The position numbers and the translations under genes were made by a program. Of a stretch of DNA of 64,000 nucleotides, positions 3,609-64,000 are shown piece after piece. Below the pieces are notes generated by a model, which had not been told where the DNA came from, did no database searches, and saw nothing but the letters and a program-made list of their open reading frames with translations. Source of the stretch: Bifidobacterium breve (GTDB taxonomy: Bacteria > Actinomycetota > Actinomycetes > Nanopelagicales > Nanopelagicaceae); assembly GCA_945890205.1 (NCBI GenBank), contig CAMDCL010000001.1, positions 62,001 to 126,000 of the forward strand, read 5' to 3'. The first letter of the stretch is position 1, and the number at the start of each line of letters is the position of its first letter.

Positions 3609-6600
3609 CTATGCAAGCCATTCCTGTAGAGACTTGATACTAAGTGGGCTAGCTTGCAAGAAGCCAATCGCATCTACCGCAGCGCTAAATCCTGCTGTGG
3701 TTGTTATGCACGGAATGGATCTTTGAACAGCTGCGGTACGAATTGCCCAGCCATCGGCACGTGTTCCGCGACCAACAGGGGTGTTTATTACTAGGTCGAT
3801 CTCACCAGAATTGATCATCTCGACAATAGTTTTTTCACCCATCTGTCCTGTGCCTTCAGAGTGTTTTCGTACCGTTGTGCACTCAATACCCTTTGTGCGC
3901 AAAAATGCGGCGGTTCCATCAGTTGCAAGAATATGAAACCCTAACTCTGAAAATCCTAAAGCAGGTTCAATTCCAGTTGCTTTGTCCTTATCAGCTAAGG
4001 AGATAAAGACAGTGCCGGATTTGGGAAGTGGACCAAAGGCAGCGATCTGACTCTTTGCATAACTTTCTCCAAAGGTTGGAGAAATCCCCATAACCTCTCC
4101 AGTAGAACGCATCTCAGGTCCAAGAACCGCATCGACTCCCCTACCATCGGTGCGGCGGAAGCGGTTCCATGGCAGTACCGCCTCCTTGACTGAAACACCC
4201 CGAGCAACACCATCGCCTGATTTCGGAAGAATTCCATCCACTCTCAATTGTTTGATTGTGGTACCAACTGAGATCCGAGCCGCCGCCTTTGCAAGAGCAA
4301 CCCCGCTGGCTTTACTAACAAAGGGCACTGTGCGAGATGCTCGGGGATTTGCTTCTAAAACATACAAAACATTATCTGCGATGGCGAATTGAATATTTAT
4401 TAATCCGCGCACATCAACTCCACGTGCAATCTTCTCCGTGGCAGAGCGAATCTCTTCTCTCTGCTCATCTGTAACTGTCATTGATGGGAGAACACAGGCA
4501 CTGTCACCGCTATGAATTCCTGCCTCTTCAATATGCTCCATGACGCCACCGAGAAAGAGCTCCTCCCCATCAAACAGGGCATCTACATCGATCTCAATTG
4601 CGTTATCAAGGAAGCGATCTACTAGTACGGGATGATCTGGAGTTATATCGGTTGCACGAGTGATAAAACCTCCGAGAGCGGCATCGTCATAGACGATCTC
4701 CATACCTCGACCACCCAACACAAATGATGGTCTGACTAAAACTGGGTATCCAATCTCGTGGGCGATATTTGTCGCCTCTAACTGTGAAGAGGCCATTCCA
4801 AATTCAGGCGCTCTCAAGCCCTGTTCTGCAAGGATATTTCCAAAGGCTCCTCGTTCTTCGGCTAGGTTAATAGCTTCAGGAGATGTACCCAAGATATTTA
4901 CTCCATTAGCCTTTAATCCAGCGGCCAACCCCAAAGGTGTCTGGCCACCTAGCTGTGTAATCACTCCCAACACTGGACCGGCCTGTATTTCGGCGTGAAC
5001 AACTTCAAGTACATCTTCTAGGGTCAATGGTTCAAAATAGAGACGATTACTTGTGTCGTAATCGGTAGAAACAGTTTCAGGGTTGCAGTTGATCATAATT
5101 GTTTCATAACCGGCCTCGCGCAGTGTGAAAGAGGCGTGAACACATGAATAATCAAACTCTATTCCCTGACCGATGCGATTAGGGCCGCTACCAAGAATGA
5201 TGACCGCAGGTGTTGTACGAGGACGTACCTCGGTCTCCTCTTCATAACTTGAATAATGATAAGGAGTAAACGCCTCAAACTCGGCTGCACATGTATCAAC
5301 TGTTTTATAAACAGGACGAACTCCTAGGTGATGGCGGGCTTTGCGAATTTCATCCTCAGAGACACCACGTAAATTAGCAATCTGACTATCTGAAAATCCC
5401 TGACCTTTTGCGGTACGAAGTAGTTCGATAGTTAACTCACCAGGTAAAGCGATGATCGCCGCCTGTTGATTGATCAGCTCGATCTGGCGCAAATACCAAG
5501 GATCTATCTTGGTTGCCTTAAAGACCTCATCGATCGTAGCTCCTGCCCACATAGCCTTTTGTACCTGCTGCAATCGATACTCAGTTGGGATGCGCATACT
5601 TTGCAGCAATGCATCGCGCTCTGTTTCAGATACAGCTGGCCAGGAAAAGATCGCTTCCTTGCGCTCCAAAGATCGTAAAGCCTTCATGAGCGCTTCCGAG
5701 AAGGAGCGACCGATGGCCATCGCCTCGCCCACACTCTTCATCGTTGTTGTTAAACGAGGATCTGCATCTGCAAACTTCTCGAAGGCAAAACGAGGAAGCT
5801 TCACAACAACATAATCCAAGGTCGGTTCAAAAGAGGCTGGCGTCACCTGCGTGATGTCATTTTGAATCTCATCTAAGGTGTAACCAATAGCCAGCTTGGT
5901 AGCAATTTTTGCGATCGGAAATCCTGTGGCTTTTGAGGCCAGGGCACTGGAGCGTGAAACTCGTGGATTCATCTCGATCACGATAATCCGACCATCACTT
6001 GGGTTTACAGCAAATTGAATATTACATCCACCAGTATCCACACCAACCTCACGGATGATCTCCATAGAAAGATCACGCAACTTCTGATACTCGACATCGG
6101 TCAAGGTCATCGCCGGTGCAACGGTAATCGAATCGCCCGTATGGACACCCATGGGATCAAGGTTCTCAATTGAACAAACAATTACAACATTGTCCTTGTT
6201 ATCGCGCATGACCTCGAGTTCATACTCTTTCCATCCGATAATTGATTCTTCAAGCAGAACTTCAGAGGTTGGACTATGTCGCAAACCAGCTCCGGCTATT
6301 TGGCGTAGCTCAGCCTCATCAAATGCGATACCAGAGCCCAAACCACCCATAGTAAAAGATGGTCGAACCACTACTGGATAATTCAATTCAACTACAGCCT
6401 TGAGAATCTCCTCCATTGTGTGACAAATACGAGACTTGGCTGACTCTCCACCAACCTTTTCAACAATCGCGCGAAAGAGTTCTCGGTTTTCACCACGATT
6501 GATCGCATCGACATCTGCTCCGATAAGCCGAACGCCATACTTTGCCAGAGTACCTCTTTCATACAGACCAATCGCAGCGTTTAAAGCTGTTTGCCCACCC

Positions 6601-6869
6601 AGTGTTGCAAGTACCGCATCAGGTTTTTCATGGACGATGATGCGTTCGATAATCTCAGGAGTAATTGGTTCGATGTAGGTTGCATCGGCGAACTCGGGAT
6701 CGGTCATAATTGTTGCAGGATTGGAGTTAACCAAAATGACTCTGATTCCTTCAGCACGCAGAACGCGACAGGCTTGAGTTCCTGAGTAATCAAACTCGCA
6801 GGCTTGACCAATAACGATTGGGCCACTGCCAATAACTAAAACACTTTTAATCGATGTATCTAAAGGCAT
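3609..6869 (-). CDS. carB: Carbamoyl-phosphate synthase large subunit
   Basis: Makes carbamoyl phosphate from ammonia (delivered by CarA), bicarbonate and two ATP; it feeds pyrimidine and arginine synthesis. The 1086-residue length is normal. Two homologous ATP-grasp halves are visible: the first with [15 protein letters not shown] near 165-180, the second with [19 protein letters not shown] near 720. The C-terminal regulatory domain has the methylglyoxal synthase-like fold, with [19 protein letters not shown]. Its ATG shares one base with the carA stop (TAATG). Confidence 0.96.
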
Positions 6870-44987: not shown

Positions 44988-45060
44988 GCGGACGTAGCGC
45001 AGTTGGTAGCGCGGAACCTTGCCAAGGTTCAGGTCGCCGGTTCGAACCCGGTCGTCCGCT
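44988..45060 (+). tRNA. tRNA-Gly (anticodon GCC)
   Basis: The acceptor stem GCGGACG pairs with CGTCCGC, followed by discriminator T. The anticodon stem GAACC/GGTTC encloses TTGCCAA, giving anticodon GCC. The T arm CCGGTTCGAACCCGG is standard. CCA is not encoded. Confidence 0.95.
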
Positions 45061-45089
45061 CTGATACTCGCCGTTTAGATTGAACTCTC

Positions 45090-45118
45090 TTGGAAGGTTT
45101 TAATCTAGCGGCGATATT
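45090..45118 (+). promoter_or_regulatory. Candidate promoter of tRNA-Cys
   Basis: TTGGAA (45090-45095) and GATATT (45113-45118) are 17 bases apart, five bases before the tRNA-Cys 5' end. Co-transcription with tRNA-Gly, 63 bases upstream, is also possible. Confidence 0.35.
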
Positions 45119-45123
45119 TGTAT

Positions 45124-45194
45124 GGTCGGGTGGCCGAGAGGCGAGGCAAGGGACTGCAAATCCCTCTACACGGGTTCAAATCCCGTCCCGACCT
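45124..45194 (+). tRNA. tRNA-Cys (anticodon GCA)
   Basis: The acceptor GGTCGGG pairs with CCCGACC, discriminator T. The anticodon loop CTGCAAA between GGGA/TCCC gives GCA. The D arm resembles that of long-arm tRNAs but the variable loop is short, so Cys is right. The three bases after the discriminator happen to read CCA (45195-45197), so CCA may be encoded. Confidence 0.94.
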
Positions 45195-45230
45195 CCACTT
45201 TTGATTCACGCTAAATAAGAGGGATGCACC

Positions 45231-45575
45231 ATGATCGATGAAGCTTCAAACAGACCATGGGGTCGCTATGAGGTTTTGCAAGAGTCGCTCACTCACAAAG
45301 TTAAATGCATCTATGTAAAACCTAACTCAAGGCTTTCATATCAACGACATCAAAAAAGAGCAGAGCACTGGTTCATAGTTTCGGGAGTAGCAACCGTGAC
45401 TCTCAACGGAGAGGTATTTACACGAAACTCTGGTGAAACCGTTGATGTAGGAGTCGGAGATCTGCACAGAATTGCTAACCAAGGATCAAGTGAGCTGGTT
45501 TTTATTGAGGTTCAAACAGGAAGCTACTTTGGAGAAGATGATATTGAGCGTATTGAGGATGATTACTCACGTTAA
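45231..45575 (+). CDS. Cupin, mannose-6-phosphate isomerase type II family
   Basis: A single cupin barrel of 114 residues matching the C-terminal isomerase domain of ManC/type II phosphomannose isomerases: RPWGRYEVL, the metal-binding RHQKRAEHWFIVSG, then GDLHRIANQG and IEVQTGSYFGEDDIERIEDDY. Metal ligands are the two His and Glu of the first motif and the His of the second. It has no pyrophosphorylase domain. Mannose 6-phosphate would feed GDP-mannose, the donor for PimA, but this link is inference. GAGGG precedes the ATG. The gene sits between tRNA-Cys and tRNA-Val. Confidence 0.88.
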   Translation: MIDEASNRPWGRYEVLQESLTHKVKCIYVKPNSRLSYQRHQKRAEHWFIVSGVATVTLNGEVFTRNSGETVDVGVGDLHRIANQGSSELVFIEVQTGSYFGEDDIERIEDDYSR

Positions 45576-45591
45576 ATGACTGATGTATAGT
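45563..45591 (+). promoter_or_regulatory. Candidate promoter of tRNA-Val
   Basis: A good -10 box TATAGT (45586-45591) lies 11 bases before tRNA-Val, with a weak -35 TTACTC (45563-45568) at 17-base spacing inside the end of the cupin gene. Confidence 0.4.
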
Positions 45592-45602
45592 TCTCACACC
45601 TA

Positions 45603-45674
45603 GGACGATTGGCTCAGCGGTAGAGCACCACATTGACATTGTGGGGGTCACTGGTTCGATCCCAGTATCGTCCA
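45603..45674 (+). tRNA. tRNA-Val (anticodon GAC)
   Basis: The acceptor GGACGAT pairs with ATCGTCC, discriminator A. The anticodon stem CCACA/TGTGG encloses a loop with GAC. The T arm is CTGGTTCGATCCCAG. CCA is not encoded. Confidence 0.94.
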
Positions 45675-61364: not shown

Positions 61365-61394
61365 GTTGTGGTTTGGTGTGCACACAACTTAATA
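61365..61394 (+). promoter_or_regulatory. Candidate promoter of the cobalamin-regulated operon, with inverted repeat
   Basis: TTGTGG (61366-61371) and TTAATA (61389-61394) are 17 bases apart, just before the riboswitch. The spacer is covered by an inverted repeat, GTTGTG (61365-61370) with CACAAC (61383-61388), which may be a regulator site or chance. Pattern only. Confidence 0.4.
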
Positions 61395-61512
61395 GCTCCT
61401 CTACTGGGGGAAGTTCGGTGAAAATCCGACGCTGACCCGCAACCGTAAATCTGTAAAAGAGAACCATCTTTTTAAAGATAAGTCGGATTACCCATTAGAA
61501 CGAGATGAGACA
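61395..61512 (+). ncRNA. Cobalamin riboswitch aptamer
   Basis: The conserved core is clear: GGGGGAAGTTCGGTGAAAAT followed by CCGACGCTGACCCGCAACCGT (61406-61445), the receptor and T-loop elements of B12 riboswitches. The B12-box equivalent is AAGTCGGATTACCC near 61480-61494. Flanks CTCCTCT and AGATGAG can pair as the closing stem. The outer limits are approximate. It senses adenosylcobalamin or another corrinoid and should repress the genes downstream when the vitamin is plentiful. Confidence 0.9.
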
Positions 61513-61629
61513 AACACCCGCCGAGGTTTGCGGGGTGTGCTCCTAACACCAAAGCTATTGGCGCCATTGCCATACCTTGGTGCGGTTCACTCCCTGTGAG
61601 ACTCTTTCTTTTTGAGAGGCTACACAGCA
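61513..61629 (+). promoter_or_regulatory. Riboswitch expression platform
   Basis: Between the aptamer and the first gene. A strong hairpin joins ACACCCGC (61514-61521) and GCGGGGTGT (61530-61538); it may be the P13 helix whose loop contacts L5. A second pair CACCAA/TTGGTG follows. Just before the gene CTCTTTCTTTTTGAGAG can pair and hide the GAGAGG ribosome site (61614-61619), suggesting control of translation. No hairpin with a T run was seen, so transcription termination is less likely. This 310-base stretch with the aptamer has no gene. Confidence 0.55.
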
Positions 61630-62154
61630 ATGAAGTTCAAAGTATTTTTTCTAGCGTTACTGATCTCCTTACTATCAACTCCACAAGCACCAGCAGCTGA
61701 AACTGGATGGCGCTATTGGGGCTACTTCCAAGCAGCACCTGGTGCAACAGCCTGGACCGCTGCGATGACAGGACCAACAGTTGCCGTGGCAGATGGTTCT
61801 GTAGAGGGTTGGGCATTTACATTTAGTAATGATGCGGTGCCAGATGCTAAAGCACCCAAGGTGGCTCCCTCCTTTTCCAAGATTTGTGGAAAGACAAAGG
61901 CTATGGCCGGCAAAAAACGTGTTGCCGTAATGGTTGATTTTGGCTCTGCAGTCTTGCGCCCTAAAGGTGAAAGAACTCCACGACTTATTCAGCGGTGCAT
62001 AGTCGCTGAACAGGATGCGCTCGGTATCGACATCTTGGGTCAAGCGGTAAAGGTTCGAGCACAAGGCTCGGGCTTTATCTGCGGACTCAACGGTTACCCA
62101 GCTAAAGAGTGTGGCGTTGAAATGAAAACTCCTAAGGGATACCTCAAGAAGTAA
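61630..62154 (+). CDS. Secreted protein, SCO2322-like, partner of an ECF transporter
   Basis: A 174-residue exported protein with a clear signal peptide (MKFKVFFLALLISLLST, cleavage after APA near residue 22). The mature part has WRYWGYFQA, the ADGSVEGWAFTFS block, KRVAVMVDFGSA and four Cys (86, 123, 151, 161) that could form two disulfides. It resembles a Streptomyces family (SCO2322) found beside ECF transporters, from memory. Likely an extracellular or cell-wall helper for corrinoid uptake; unproven. The ATG at 61630 is preceded by GAGAGG. Confidence 0.75.
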   Translation: MKFKVFFLALLISLLSTPQAPAAETGWRYWGYFQAAPGATAWTAAMTGPTVAVADGSVEGWAFTFSNDAVPDAKAPKVAPSFSKICGKTKAMAGKKRVAVMVDFGSAVLRPKGERTPRLIQRCIVAEQDALGIDILGQAVKVRAQGSGFICGLNGYPAKECGVEMKTPKGYLKK

Positions 62155-62156
62155 GT

Positions 62157-62903
62157 ATGACTCAACCATCACTGCACCCATTTACCTGGTGGCTTTGGGC
62201 TATCGGATTGGCCGTTGCCATTGTTCGATTTGATAGCACCTGGTTCACATTGTCATGTGTGGGTGTAGTGATGGTGCTTGTTTTCAGGCTCAGAGATGAT
62301 GCGCCATGGGCCAAGAGTTTTGATTGGACCTTGAAGTTATCGGCTTGGATCTTAGGGGTCAGAACAATCATAGGAATCACAATTGGCGTGCCAATTCCGG
62401 GCACTGAACTTTTTAGATTACCTGTCCTGCCGCTACCTACATGGATGCCAGGAATTCGAATTGGTGGTGTGGTTACCTGGGAACGATTATCTTCATCATT
62501 GTCAGAGGGGTTGCTCATCTGCTCCATCATTGTCATCTTCGGTGCCGCAGCATCTCTAACCAGTCCTCATCGCTTACTTCGCGTATTGCCCATTTACATC
62601 TATGAGTTTGCCGTCGCGGTTGTGATCGCAACATCAGTTCTGCCACAACTTGTTGGTTCAGTTAAGCGAATTCGTTTAGCACAACGGTTGCGCGGAGAAA
62701 ATACCCGCGGATTCAGATCATGGAAACGTGTTGCAATTCCACTACTTGAAGAGTCACTTGCTCGATCACTTGATTTGGCCGCCGCCATGGATAGTCGCGG
62801 GTACGGGGTGAGCAAGAAGCGTTCCCGCTACCGCCCCATTTCATGGCGACTCAAGGATTCTCTTGTCGTGATCTTAGCTATTGGATTGGTCGTGATCTCA
62901 TGA
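62157..62903 (+). CDS. ECF transporter transmembrane T component
   Basis: A 248-residue membrane protein of the CbiQ/EcfT family that couples the ATPases to the substrate-binding S subunit. Around four to six helices are visible, plus the two cytosolic coupling motifs, RLAQRLRGE (about 175-183) and LAAAMDSRGYG (about 207-217), whose Ala-Arg-Gly-like triplets contact the ATPases. It starts 2 bases after the secreted-protein gene and overlaps the ATPase gene by 4 bases. Confidence 0.88.
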   Translation: MTQPSLHPFTWWLWAIGLAVAIVRFDSTWFTLSCVGVVMVLVFRLRDDAPWAKSFDWTLKLSAWILGVRTIIGITIGVPIPGTELFRLPVLPLPTWMPGIRIGGVVTWERLSSSLSEGLLICSIIVIFGAAASLTSPHRLLRVLPIYIYEFAVAVVIATSVLPQLVGSVKRIRLAQRLRGENTRGFRSWKRVAIPLLEESLARSLDLAAAMDSRGYGVSKKRSRYRPISWRLKDSLVVILAIGLVVIS

Positions 62904-64000
62904 TCAAGTTTTCCCATGTCTCTTTGATCTACCCAAACTCAACGACAACTGTTCTGGAAGATCTCAATCTGACAATTGCAGAAGGAGAGCTGGTTTTAGT
63001 TATAGGTCCTACCGGGTCAGGCAAATCTTCATTGTTGCGACTTATCAATGGGTTAGTTCCCCACCACACCGGCGGCATCCTAGCTGGAGATATATGTGTG
63101 AACGGGGTTTCAACTCAAATGACTAAGCCTGGTGGTATGGCCCACCTGATTGGAATCGTTGGACAAAACCCGGCAAATGGCTTTGTTGCCGACACAGTTG
63201 AAGAGGAGCTTGTATTTGGAATGGAAGTTCTTAACCTTCCTAATGATGTGATGCGCAAACGTGTTGAGGAGGTTTTGGATCTGCTCAGCCTTGCCGCGCT
63301 GCGCAATCGATCAATTGCGACATTAAGTGGTGGAGAACAACAAAGAGTTGCCATAGGTGCCGCCTTGGTAACCCATCCGAAGGTCTTAGTTTTGGATGAG
63401 CCAACAAGTGCTTTAGATCCAATCGCTGCAGAAGAGGTGCTATCGATTCTGCATCGCTTGGTCCATGATCTAGGTCTTACCGTTGTAATCGCCGAACACA
63501 AGTTAGAACGTGTCATTCAATTTGCCGATCGAATCGTTTACATCAATGGCGATGGCGCAGCAAATGTCGGAACACCTGAGGAGATTCTGATGCAATCGCC
63601 TATCGCACCTCCCATTGTGCATCTAGCTAGAGCTTTGGGATTGAAGGAGATCGGAGTCACGGTCCGAGAGATGCGCAGAATGACAACACATCTGCGAGAA
63701 GCGATTGCTTCTCATCCAGTTGCAGATTCACAAAAGCCGACCGAAACCGTTATCTCCTTTGACAAGCTCACAGTTGTTTACGAGAACCAAACCGCACTGA
63801 ACAACATCTCTTCAACAATTTGTGCCGGAGAAATTGTGGCGGTCATGGGTAGAAATGGCGCTGGCAAAAGCTCCTTATTAAAGGCCATTGCCGGAGTGAA
63901 CCGACCTGGGACAGGGGTAATCAAGGTACTTGGCGATGATCCATACGATCTACAGGGTAAAAAGCGACGAGAAGCTATTGGCTTTATCCCGCAGGAGCCA
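62900..64000 (+). CDS. ECF transporter ATPase, two fused ABC domains, cut by window end
   Basis: ATPase of the ECF transporter, with both nucleotide-binding domains in one chain. The first domain has Walker A GPTGSGKSS (36-44), signature LSGGEQQRV (142-150), Walker B VLVLDEPTSALD and the switch His200. The second begins near residue 283 with Walker A GRNGAGKSS (316-324) and continues past the edge after IGFIPQEP (its Q-loop). 367 codons are visible. The gene for the S (binding) subunit is not in view and may follow. Under the upstream cobalamin riboswitch, a corrinoid importer is the best guess. Confidence 0.88.
   Translation, partial: MIKFSHVSLIYPNSTTTVLEDLNLTIAEGELVLVIGPTGSGKSSLLRLINGLVPHHTGGILAGDICVNGVSTQMTKPGGMAHLIGIVGQNPANGFVADTVEEELVFGMEVLNLPNDVMRKRVEEVLDLLSLAALRNRSIATLSGGEQQRVAIGAALVTHPKVLVLDEPTSALDPIAAEEVLSILHRLVHDLGLTVVIAEHKLERVIQFADRIVYINGDGAANVGTPEEILMQSPIAPPIVHLARALGLKEIGVTVREMRRMTTHLREAIASHPVADSQKPTETVISFDKLTVVYENQTALNNISSTICAGEIVAVMGRNGAGKSSLLKAIAGVNRPGTGVIKVLGDDPYDLQGKKRREAIGFIPQEP

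Follow-up and report, generated by a model that had tools for sequence, protein, structure and literature searches.

A riboswitch-led ECF transporter operon of a Candidatus Planktophila-type genome and its secreted partner, a likely circularly permuted relative of the transcobalamin beta domain

To our knowledge, energy-coupling factor (ECF) transporters are usually described as needing no extracellular capture protein, and the locus studied here raises the question of what a secreted protein encoded in the same operon as such a transporter might do. The locus lies at the end of a window of 64,000 nucleotides, by which we mean the whole stretch of DNA that was analysed (contig CAMDCL010000001.1, deposited as Bifidobacterium breve, positions 62,001 to 126,000; G000:C1:62001-126000). 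The assembly is of 1.27 Mb and 83% complete, and the host is a lake bacterium whose genome is of the Candidatus Planktophila type. In the last part of the window, on the + strand, a gene of the SCO2322 family and the genes for EcfT and a fused EcfA-EcfA stand behind a cobalamin riboswitch. Our preferred explanation, which we consider probable, is an ECF-type importer of corrinoids that is repressible by B12 and has an extracellular capture protein of its own. From its context, the unit very probably imports B12 in this Ca. Planktophila-type genome, and its secreted partner is most likely a transcobalamin-type beta-grasp (SLBB) domain in circularly permuted form that would capture the corrinoid for the S component.

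An earlier note on this DNA had described the riboswitch, a four-cysteine exported protein, an EcfT and a fused EcfA-EcfA, and matches to Rfam, NCBIfam and Pfam confirm all four. The aptamer, of the adenosylcobalamin (AdoCbl) type, occupies the 5' leader of the operon at 61384..61542 (+) and is matched by RF01482 over the complete model (1-149 of 149). It is followed on the same strand by the gene for the exported protein of 174 aa (61630..62154), which matches the NCBIfam family SCO2322_fam (NF040672) with 141.6 bits against a curated cut-off of 85 (E 2.2e-41, profile positions 2-143 of 144). Next come the EcfT transmembrane component of 248 aa (62157..62903, +; PF02361 CbiQ, E 9e-12, 45.5 bits against a cut-off of 25) and the fused EcfA-EcfA ATPase of 535 aa with two ABC_tran stretches (PF00005, E 1.3e-54), whose gene runs past position 64000 (window-equivalent 62900..64507, +). 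The S subunit that the note had proposed to look for beyond that point is present as a protein of 265 aa at window-equivalent 64504-65301 (L003:3505-4302). All parts of an ECF transporter (EcfT, a pair of EcfA domains and the S component) are thus encoded by contiguous genes. The note's idea of a dedicated B12 uptake route is well supported by context, namely by this complete unit, by its riboswitch-led occurrence across the order and by BtuFCD-like genes found in the same slot in other genera.

The window riboswitch is more than a chance match. Its score is below the gathering thresholds, and we nevertheless take it as real because orthologous loci pass gathering and 94 of the 99 SCO2322 genes in the order Nanopelagicales are riboswitch-led, with an RF00174 match (E <= 0.001) on the same strand and no more than 2.5 kb upstream. 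At the orthologous position, a cobalamin-clan gathering score was reached in 18 of 20 loci (13 by RF01482, 2 by RF01689 and 3 by RF00174). The distance from SCO2322 gene to riboswitch is 700 bases or less in 91 genes, with a median of 177. Three of the five genes without an upstream RF00174 have a match on another contig, and the remaining two genomes, G033 and G081, have no match at all. The RF00174 match here is the sole one at E <= 0.001 in the assembly. Outside the order, a riboswitch was found at 7 of 12 scanned loci with the window form of the gene (S-form) and at 6 of 9 scanned loci with the form described below whose halves are in the opposite order (P-form); in one of the latter, L165, it leads a second beta gene and not the ECF operon. 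The leader RNA has a fold z of -2.2, and no expression platform could be settled. To judge from the RNA family, a low corrinoid level would leave the riboswitch unbound and the operon on.

The S component matches two Pfam families above their cut-offs, PF07155 (41.3 bits, E 2.1e-10) and PF12822 (31.6 bits, E 2e-7), and stays below the NCBIfam cut-offs for the folate family (30.4 against 60) and the riboflavin family (22.6 against 99). A phmmer search against the PDB gave no match suggesting kinship, CbrT included. The earlier note had held that an S component next to the operon with a different, known specificity would speak against B12. None of that kind was found, in so far as the folate and riboflavin cut-offs are missed; what places the protein is two broad Pfam families only. 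From the context of the gene, we infer that the substrate is a corrinoid.

The exported protein has a hydrophobic N-terminus and four cysteines (86, 123, 151 and 161) that are invariant across 32 aligned homologues. No Pfam family matches it at E <= 1, and PF14478 (DUF4430) has no match at E <= 0.001 in the window genome. Three assignments were considered and rejected: that it is itself the S component (it has a single N-terminal hydrophobic segment, and the PF07155/PF12822 protein lies downstream instead), that it is a direct member of DUF4430 (PF14478 misses both the window protein and ten scanned proteins of weak loci), and that it is of viral origin (no relative was confirmed in viral contigs).

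Matches to SCO2322 occur in 123 of 296 genomes of the class, 102 of them above the cut-off; this breadth comes from the wider genome search, the contig scan having given near relatives only among its 80 retained loci. In several weak matches the two halves of NF040672 occur in swapped order within one reading frame, and these are the P-forms, whose order we take to be the unpermuted one. Forty loci outside the order were compared: 20 strong, 16 P-form (L155-L170) and 4 weaker loci of the window form (L171-L174). EcfT, EcfAA and S genes are downstream in 17 of the 20 strong loci; all three ECF genes are present in 12 P-form loci, two at a contig end in one and none in three; and two of the four weaker loci have all three. 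The comparison of neighbours that the note had called for thus finds EcfT-EcfAA-S recurring both in the order and outside it. Ten proteins of the weak loci matched no relevant Pfam family and, in NCBIfam, gave partial, sub-cut-off matches to NF040672 only. Seven loci (L061, L075, L084, L087, L092, L100 and L133) are on contigs of metagenome-assembled genomes titled Bifidobacterium breve or Streptomyces griseus that carry a Planktophila-like SCO2322 (55-62% identity); the titles look wrong.

The swapped order was examined with a profile of the window family (A1), built from 32 of 53 SCO2322 rows after removal of duplicate and nearly identical ones, and a profile of 19 P-forms (A2). Unrotated, the two align over 45 columns with a score of 73. 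When A1 was rotated in silico with a cut at residue 85, the alignment extended to 110 columns and the score to 129. The optimum is broad (residues 79-97), and the score climbs to it as the single optimum when the cut is shifted, while control rotations within each form peak at zero permutation. In the merged alignment, Cys 123, 151 and 161 coincide with invariant cysteines of the P-form. These profile comparisons indicate that the SCO2322 domain is related to the P-form family by circular permutation. In two loci, L164 and L165, a single operon has two beta genes around it, and L164 also has two copies of the gene for the toroid partner (below); tandem gene copies of this kind are a plausible route to circular permutation.

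The P-form in turn resembles the beta domain of transcobalamin. Compared by hhalign with a DUF4430 profile (A3, 26 of 30 DUF4430 loci, four without a motif match being omitted), the P-form profile gave 91.5% over 100 columns; with gap-filtered columns, none of 200 column shuffles reached the observed 39.4, the best being 24.7. The AlphaFold2 model of a P-form (predicted local distance difference test, pLDDT, 86.7) has the strand order E-E-H-E-E-E-E, as in the DUF4430 clade. That linear order, with its hairpin after the helix, is absent in the window family, which appears permuted. The 15 top Foldseek matches of the P-form model are all transcobalamin (human, bovine or rat) or 3u7z, and the next is unrelated (E 2.7). 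VIA-align, as a second look at Foldseek's own candidates, gave Z of 9.4-10.2 over 94-97 residues to transcobalamin, haptocorrin, intrinsic factor and 3u7z, the next value being 5.0. A search of PDB sequences with the DUF4430 profile found 3u7z (E 0.0014), and transcobalamin-1 no better than at E 0.13. Of these structures, 3u7z is titled as a putative metal-binding protein, and 5np4 as the isolated human transcobalamin beta domain bound to cyanocobalamin. Since that domain is listed as solved with cyanocobalamin, a lone beta domain can in principle bind a corrinoid.

The earlier note had offered two guesses for the secreted protein. That of extracellular corrinoid capture is backed by the apparent homology to a transcobalamin-beta-like domain in circularly permuted form. 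For that of a cell-wall protein, nothing was found except C-terminal membrane anchors in relatives. By our own hydropathy cut-off, 40 of 46 beta open reading frames (ORFs), taken from 42 loci that lie outside the genus, have a C-terminal membrane helix. In the order itself, 6 of 53 rows, among which some genes are counted more than once, have such a helix and 3 have a lipobox pattern, which is doubtful in one case. Neither a C-terminal membrane anchor nor a lipobox is present in the window copy.

A second protein accompanies the beta domain in many relatives. An alpha/alpha-toroid protein is encoded nearby in 28 of the 43 loci examined; all five toroids tested match the NCBIfam SCO2321 family (NF053823), each under the cut-off, and the family is squalene-cyclase-like by profile. 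In transcobalamin, the toroid cooperates with the beta domain in B12 binding, according to the available part of PMC1796856. Profiles of S-type and P-type toroids (10 and 11 sequences from the 28 toroid loci) score 315 over 222 columns unrotated and 430 over 311 columns rotated, so the toroid, too, appears to differ by circular permutation between the two kinds of operon. Internal repeats in the toroids favour permutation and loosen the alignment, yet the controls within each form again peak at zero permutation. The toroid alignment (A5) holds 16 sequences, eight ORFs without a phmmer match being omitted. A half-by-half test of order could classify both proteins in 25 of 42 loci, and both have the P order in 13, both the S order in 12, and the order is mixed in none (the others being 10 beta-S only, 4 beta-P only, 1 alpha-S only and 2 neither). 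The 25 concordant loci share ancestry and are not 25 events, so the concordance places the permutations of beta and toroid on the same branch in this sample and is no evidence that they recurred.

Two loci show the pair in unusual arrangements. In L166 (6513-10196, -) an ORF of 1228 codons contains a P-form beta domain (residues 79-212), a toroid (423-781) and a C-terminal hydrophobic helix, with a segment between beta domain and toroid that is Ig-like by eye; the ORF appears to be a natural fusion of two transcobalamin-like receptor halves. In L177 (7134-14137, from the Streptomyces-like genus g31), a run of genes encodes a P-form, EcfT, EcfAA, S, a toroid whose end is LPxTG-like and, as a distinct protein, one of PF14478; a cobalamin riboswitch (6575-6768, -) points away from those genes.

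Several results weigh against reading the unit as a corrinoid importer with a transcobalamin-like capture protein. The window aptamer scores 42.5 bits with RF01482, under the gathering value of 50 (E 1.6e-6 for 551 bases searched), and 31.4 bits with RF00174, for which gathering is 31.5 (E 1.7e-6 for the whole genome); a whole-window Rfam scan at gathering does not list it. One of the Pfam families matched by the S component is named for riboflavin, and a sequence search of the PDB with an 18-sequence profile (A4, 18 of 22 S components) found no chain at E <= 10. The AlphaFold2 model of the window form, the structure prediction that the note had wished for, has a pLDDT of 87.8 and found no convincing fold match by Foldseek or VIA-align. 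The rotated window-form family matches DUF4430 weakly (16.5%, score 24.5, the best of 200 shuffles being 22.8), and unrotated the value is 8.5%. Even for the P-form model, the best Foldseek E is 0.0034, with none below 0.001, and the P-form profile finds no transcobalamin among PDB sequences. Because the window-form model finds no fold match and the direct DUF4430 match is weak, the link to transcobalamin runs through the P-form. Lastly, a single-sequence search of the order for the toroid found it in 2 of 61 genomes, both of genus g8, and not in the window genome. As to the window-form model, Foldseek alignments keep chain order, and a permuted match can escape them; its null result is expected for a permuted order, and is not proof of permutation.

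The poor window-form model matches and the direct DUF4430 value would also suit a different explanation, in which the likeness of SCO2322 to the P-form arose by convergence or module shuffling and the SCO2322 fold is unrelated to transcobalamin. We find this hardly credible. The two halves align in swapped order with a score that climbs to one optimum, single proteins carry both NF040672 halves swapped in one frame, three cysteines of the window family match invariant ones of the P-form, and both forms precede the same EcfT-EcfAA-S genes.

With a corrinoid-capturing beta domain, the unit would work as follows. The fold suggests that the secreted beta-grasp domain binds the corrinoid outside the membrane; it would then present it to the S component, and EcfT-EcfAA, by the function of their families, would drive import. 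In many other actinobacteria the SCO2321 toroid may close on the other face of B12 and so make up a split, surface-anchored transcobalamin-like receptor. In the Ca. Planktophila-type genome, where the toroid was not found, the beta domain would work alone. It is also conceivable that B12 is imported by the ECF transporter and that the secreted protein serves the S component as a surface scaffold or lid and has no corrinoid affinity of its own. In ECF transporters, the S component is itself the binding protein, as the portion of PMC5997447 at hand states, and the C-terminal anchors of the relatives and the missing toroid of the window genome would fit a scaffold. We regard this as unlikely in view of the homology to the beta domains with which transcobalamin, haptocorrin and intrinsic factor contact B12, of 5np4 with its cyanocobalamin, and of three g3 genomes that keep a lone riboswitch-led P-form beta domain with no S component.

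Within the order, the SCO2322 family is above cut-off in 99 of 151 genomes, and the gene order SCO2322-EcfT-EcfAA-S was found in 20 of 20 fetched loci from nine genera. The S component occurs in 98 of the 151 genomes, 96 of them with SCO2322 and 2 without; SCO2322 only is found in 3, and neither in 50. In the five discordant genomes the genes are at contig ends. A cobalamin riboswitch without SCO2322 was found in 44 genomes, and 14 such loci were fetched. Eleven of these have a three-gene pattern like BtuF-BtuC-BtuD; Pfam supports the five binding proteins checked (PF01497) and the one permease checked (PF01032), and 9 of the 11 third genes match an ABC ATPase. The other three (L212, L213 and L224, all of genus g3) have only a riboswitch-led protein of some 175 aa, which has a single hydrophobic segment at its N-terminus and is matched by the P-form profile (E 4e-16 to 1e-15). 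In these single-contig genomes of 1.2 Mb this beta domain occupies the slot, and neither the ECF genes nor the S component are present; another g3 genome, G121, has SCO2322 and S. The SCO2322 loci are flanked by gcvT in 20 of 20 cases and pepA in 18 of 20, and 19 of 20 have an aldo/keto reductase gene on their opposite flank. Nine of the 14 replacement loci adjoin the same gcvT and pepA, and the other five, four of them from the genus of the window, show no gcvT/pepA flanks in the fetched stretch. The shared flanks indicate that, in several genera, alternative and putative corrinoid uptake sets occupy a single chromosomal slot behind one riboswitch.

The organisms of the order appear to use B12. 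The B12 domain of MetH is found in 111 of 151 genomes, the window genome included, and NrdJ matches in 133 of 151, 114 above cut-off, with none in the incomplete window genome. In three places cobalamin riboswitches of 96-103 bits lie 0.6-0.7 kb upstream of sub-cut-off NrdJ-like matches (G007:C2:350974-351192, G044:C63:4411-4629 and G036:C4:759-972). Among 101 genomes of the order, only G021 has CobS, near a binding protein, and it was not found in the window genome; with CobS nearly absent, cobalt for corrin is probably not needed. This bears on the alternative that the operon is an importer of cobalt (or nickel) for corrin synthesis, similar to CbiMNQO, with the secreted protein as a metal-handling accessory. 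Cobalt importers too may be led by cobalamin riboswitches, as the accessible text of PMC8079986 reports for cbiM of Streptomyces lividans, and the CbiQ family of EcfT, the four conserved cysteines and the title of 3u7z would agree with metal handling. We nevertheless think a metal importer very improbable, given that the S component matches PF07155 and PF12822 and not a CbiM family in a run of four contiguous genes, that corrin cobalt seems unneeded, that BtuFCD-like genes take the same riboswitch slot in other genera, and that the P-form has the fold of B12 binders.

A corrinoid importer for this lineage has been proposed before. Kang et al. (2017; PMC5301498) suggested, in the text available, a riboswitch-led ECF as cobalamin transporter of acI Actinobacteria; the lineage is the same, lacks B12 synthesis and has cobalamin/AdoCbl riboswitches before the ECF module, and the secreted partner is unmentioned in that portion of the paper. 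ECF-CbrT of Lactobacillus delbrueckii is likewise a B12 ECF transporter with the S component as binding subunit, and in the available part of PMC5997447 it is described without a separate extracellular partner. BtuF-BtuC-BtuD, by comparison, takes the same slot with binding protein and permease of unrelated families (PF01497 and PF01032). Bacterial transcobalamin-like domains, often with toroids and in CbiO/CbiQ-like operons, were predicted by Burroughs et al. (2007; PMC1796856, seen in part) to be B12 scavengers. That SLBB clade (PF14478) resembles the window family in being secreted or anchored beta-grasp proteins with CbiO/CbiQ-like neighbours, in hosts usually without B12 synthesis; according to the same partial text, its hosts are low-GC Gram-positives, planctomycetes and euryarchaea. 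Unlike it, the window family has its halves swapped and passes no Pfam model, and the stem 'permut' is absent from the available text. A review of the beta-grasp fold names circular permutation, in its accessible part, only for the E1 UFD domain (PMC1949818). The animal carriers transcobalamin, intrinsic factor and haptocorrin share the beta fold of the P-form, many relatives have the toroid as well, and L166 joins both. They differ in being one secreted protein, as against usually two surface proteins beside a membrane importer, and in that the window family is permuted and its genome has no toroid that could be found.

Our literature search, which covered few subscription journals, found none on SCO2322 and nothing relevant on SCO2321 or SCO2323-2325, and its pairings of transcobalamin with circular permutation were PMC1949818 and work on ZNF143 only. 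The SCO2322 family is not mentioned in the available portions of PMC4350170, PMC2667541, PMC8914203 and PMC8079986. As far as that literature goes, what is new is the identification of SCO2322 as a putative permuted relative of the transcobalamin beta domain, the concordantly permuted toroid, and the slot shared with BtuFCD-like genes.

As to the surroundings of the operon, beyond the S component lie convergent genes that, from their translations, we take to be gcvT, pepA and lpdA. Elsewhere in the window, three tRNA genes are clustered at 44988-45674.

Taken together, a wider reading can be offered tentatively, as a possibility that falls somewhat short of even chances. The SCO2321 toroid and the SCO2322 beta-grasp domain may be the two halves of one bacterial transcobalamin, from which B12 would pass to an ECF S component. 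Both halves would have been circularly permuted on one branch, each keeping its partner, with the anchored chain ends moved and the B12-clasping interface kept. Many freshwater Nanopelagicales would then have come to rely only on the beta half in its permuted form, and some genomes of 1.2 Mb on an unpermuted beta domain by itself, these ECF genes being absent. Two actinobacterial families so far uncharacterised, SCO2322_fam and SCO2321_fam, thereby receive a concrete predicted fold and a function that can be tested, and an ECF transporter receives a likely protein for extracellular capture. The pair would be a separable bacterial model of the two-domain B12 clasp of animals, and an unusual case in which two partner domains are both apparently circularly permuted. 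For freshwater actinobacteria unable to make B12, the operon would be a gene set by which they take it up.

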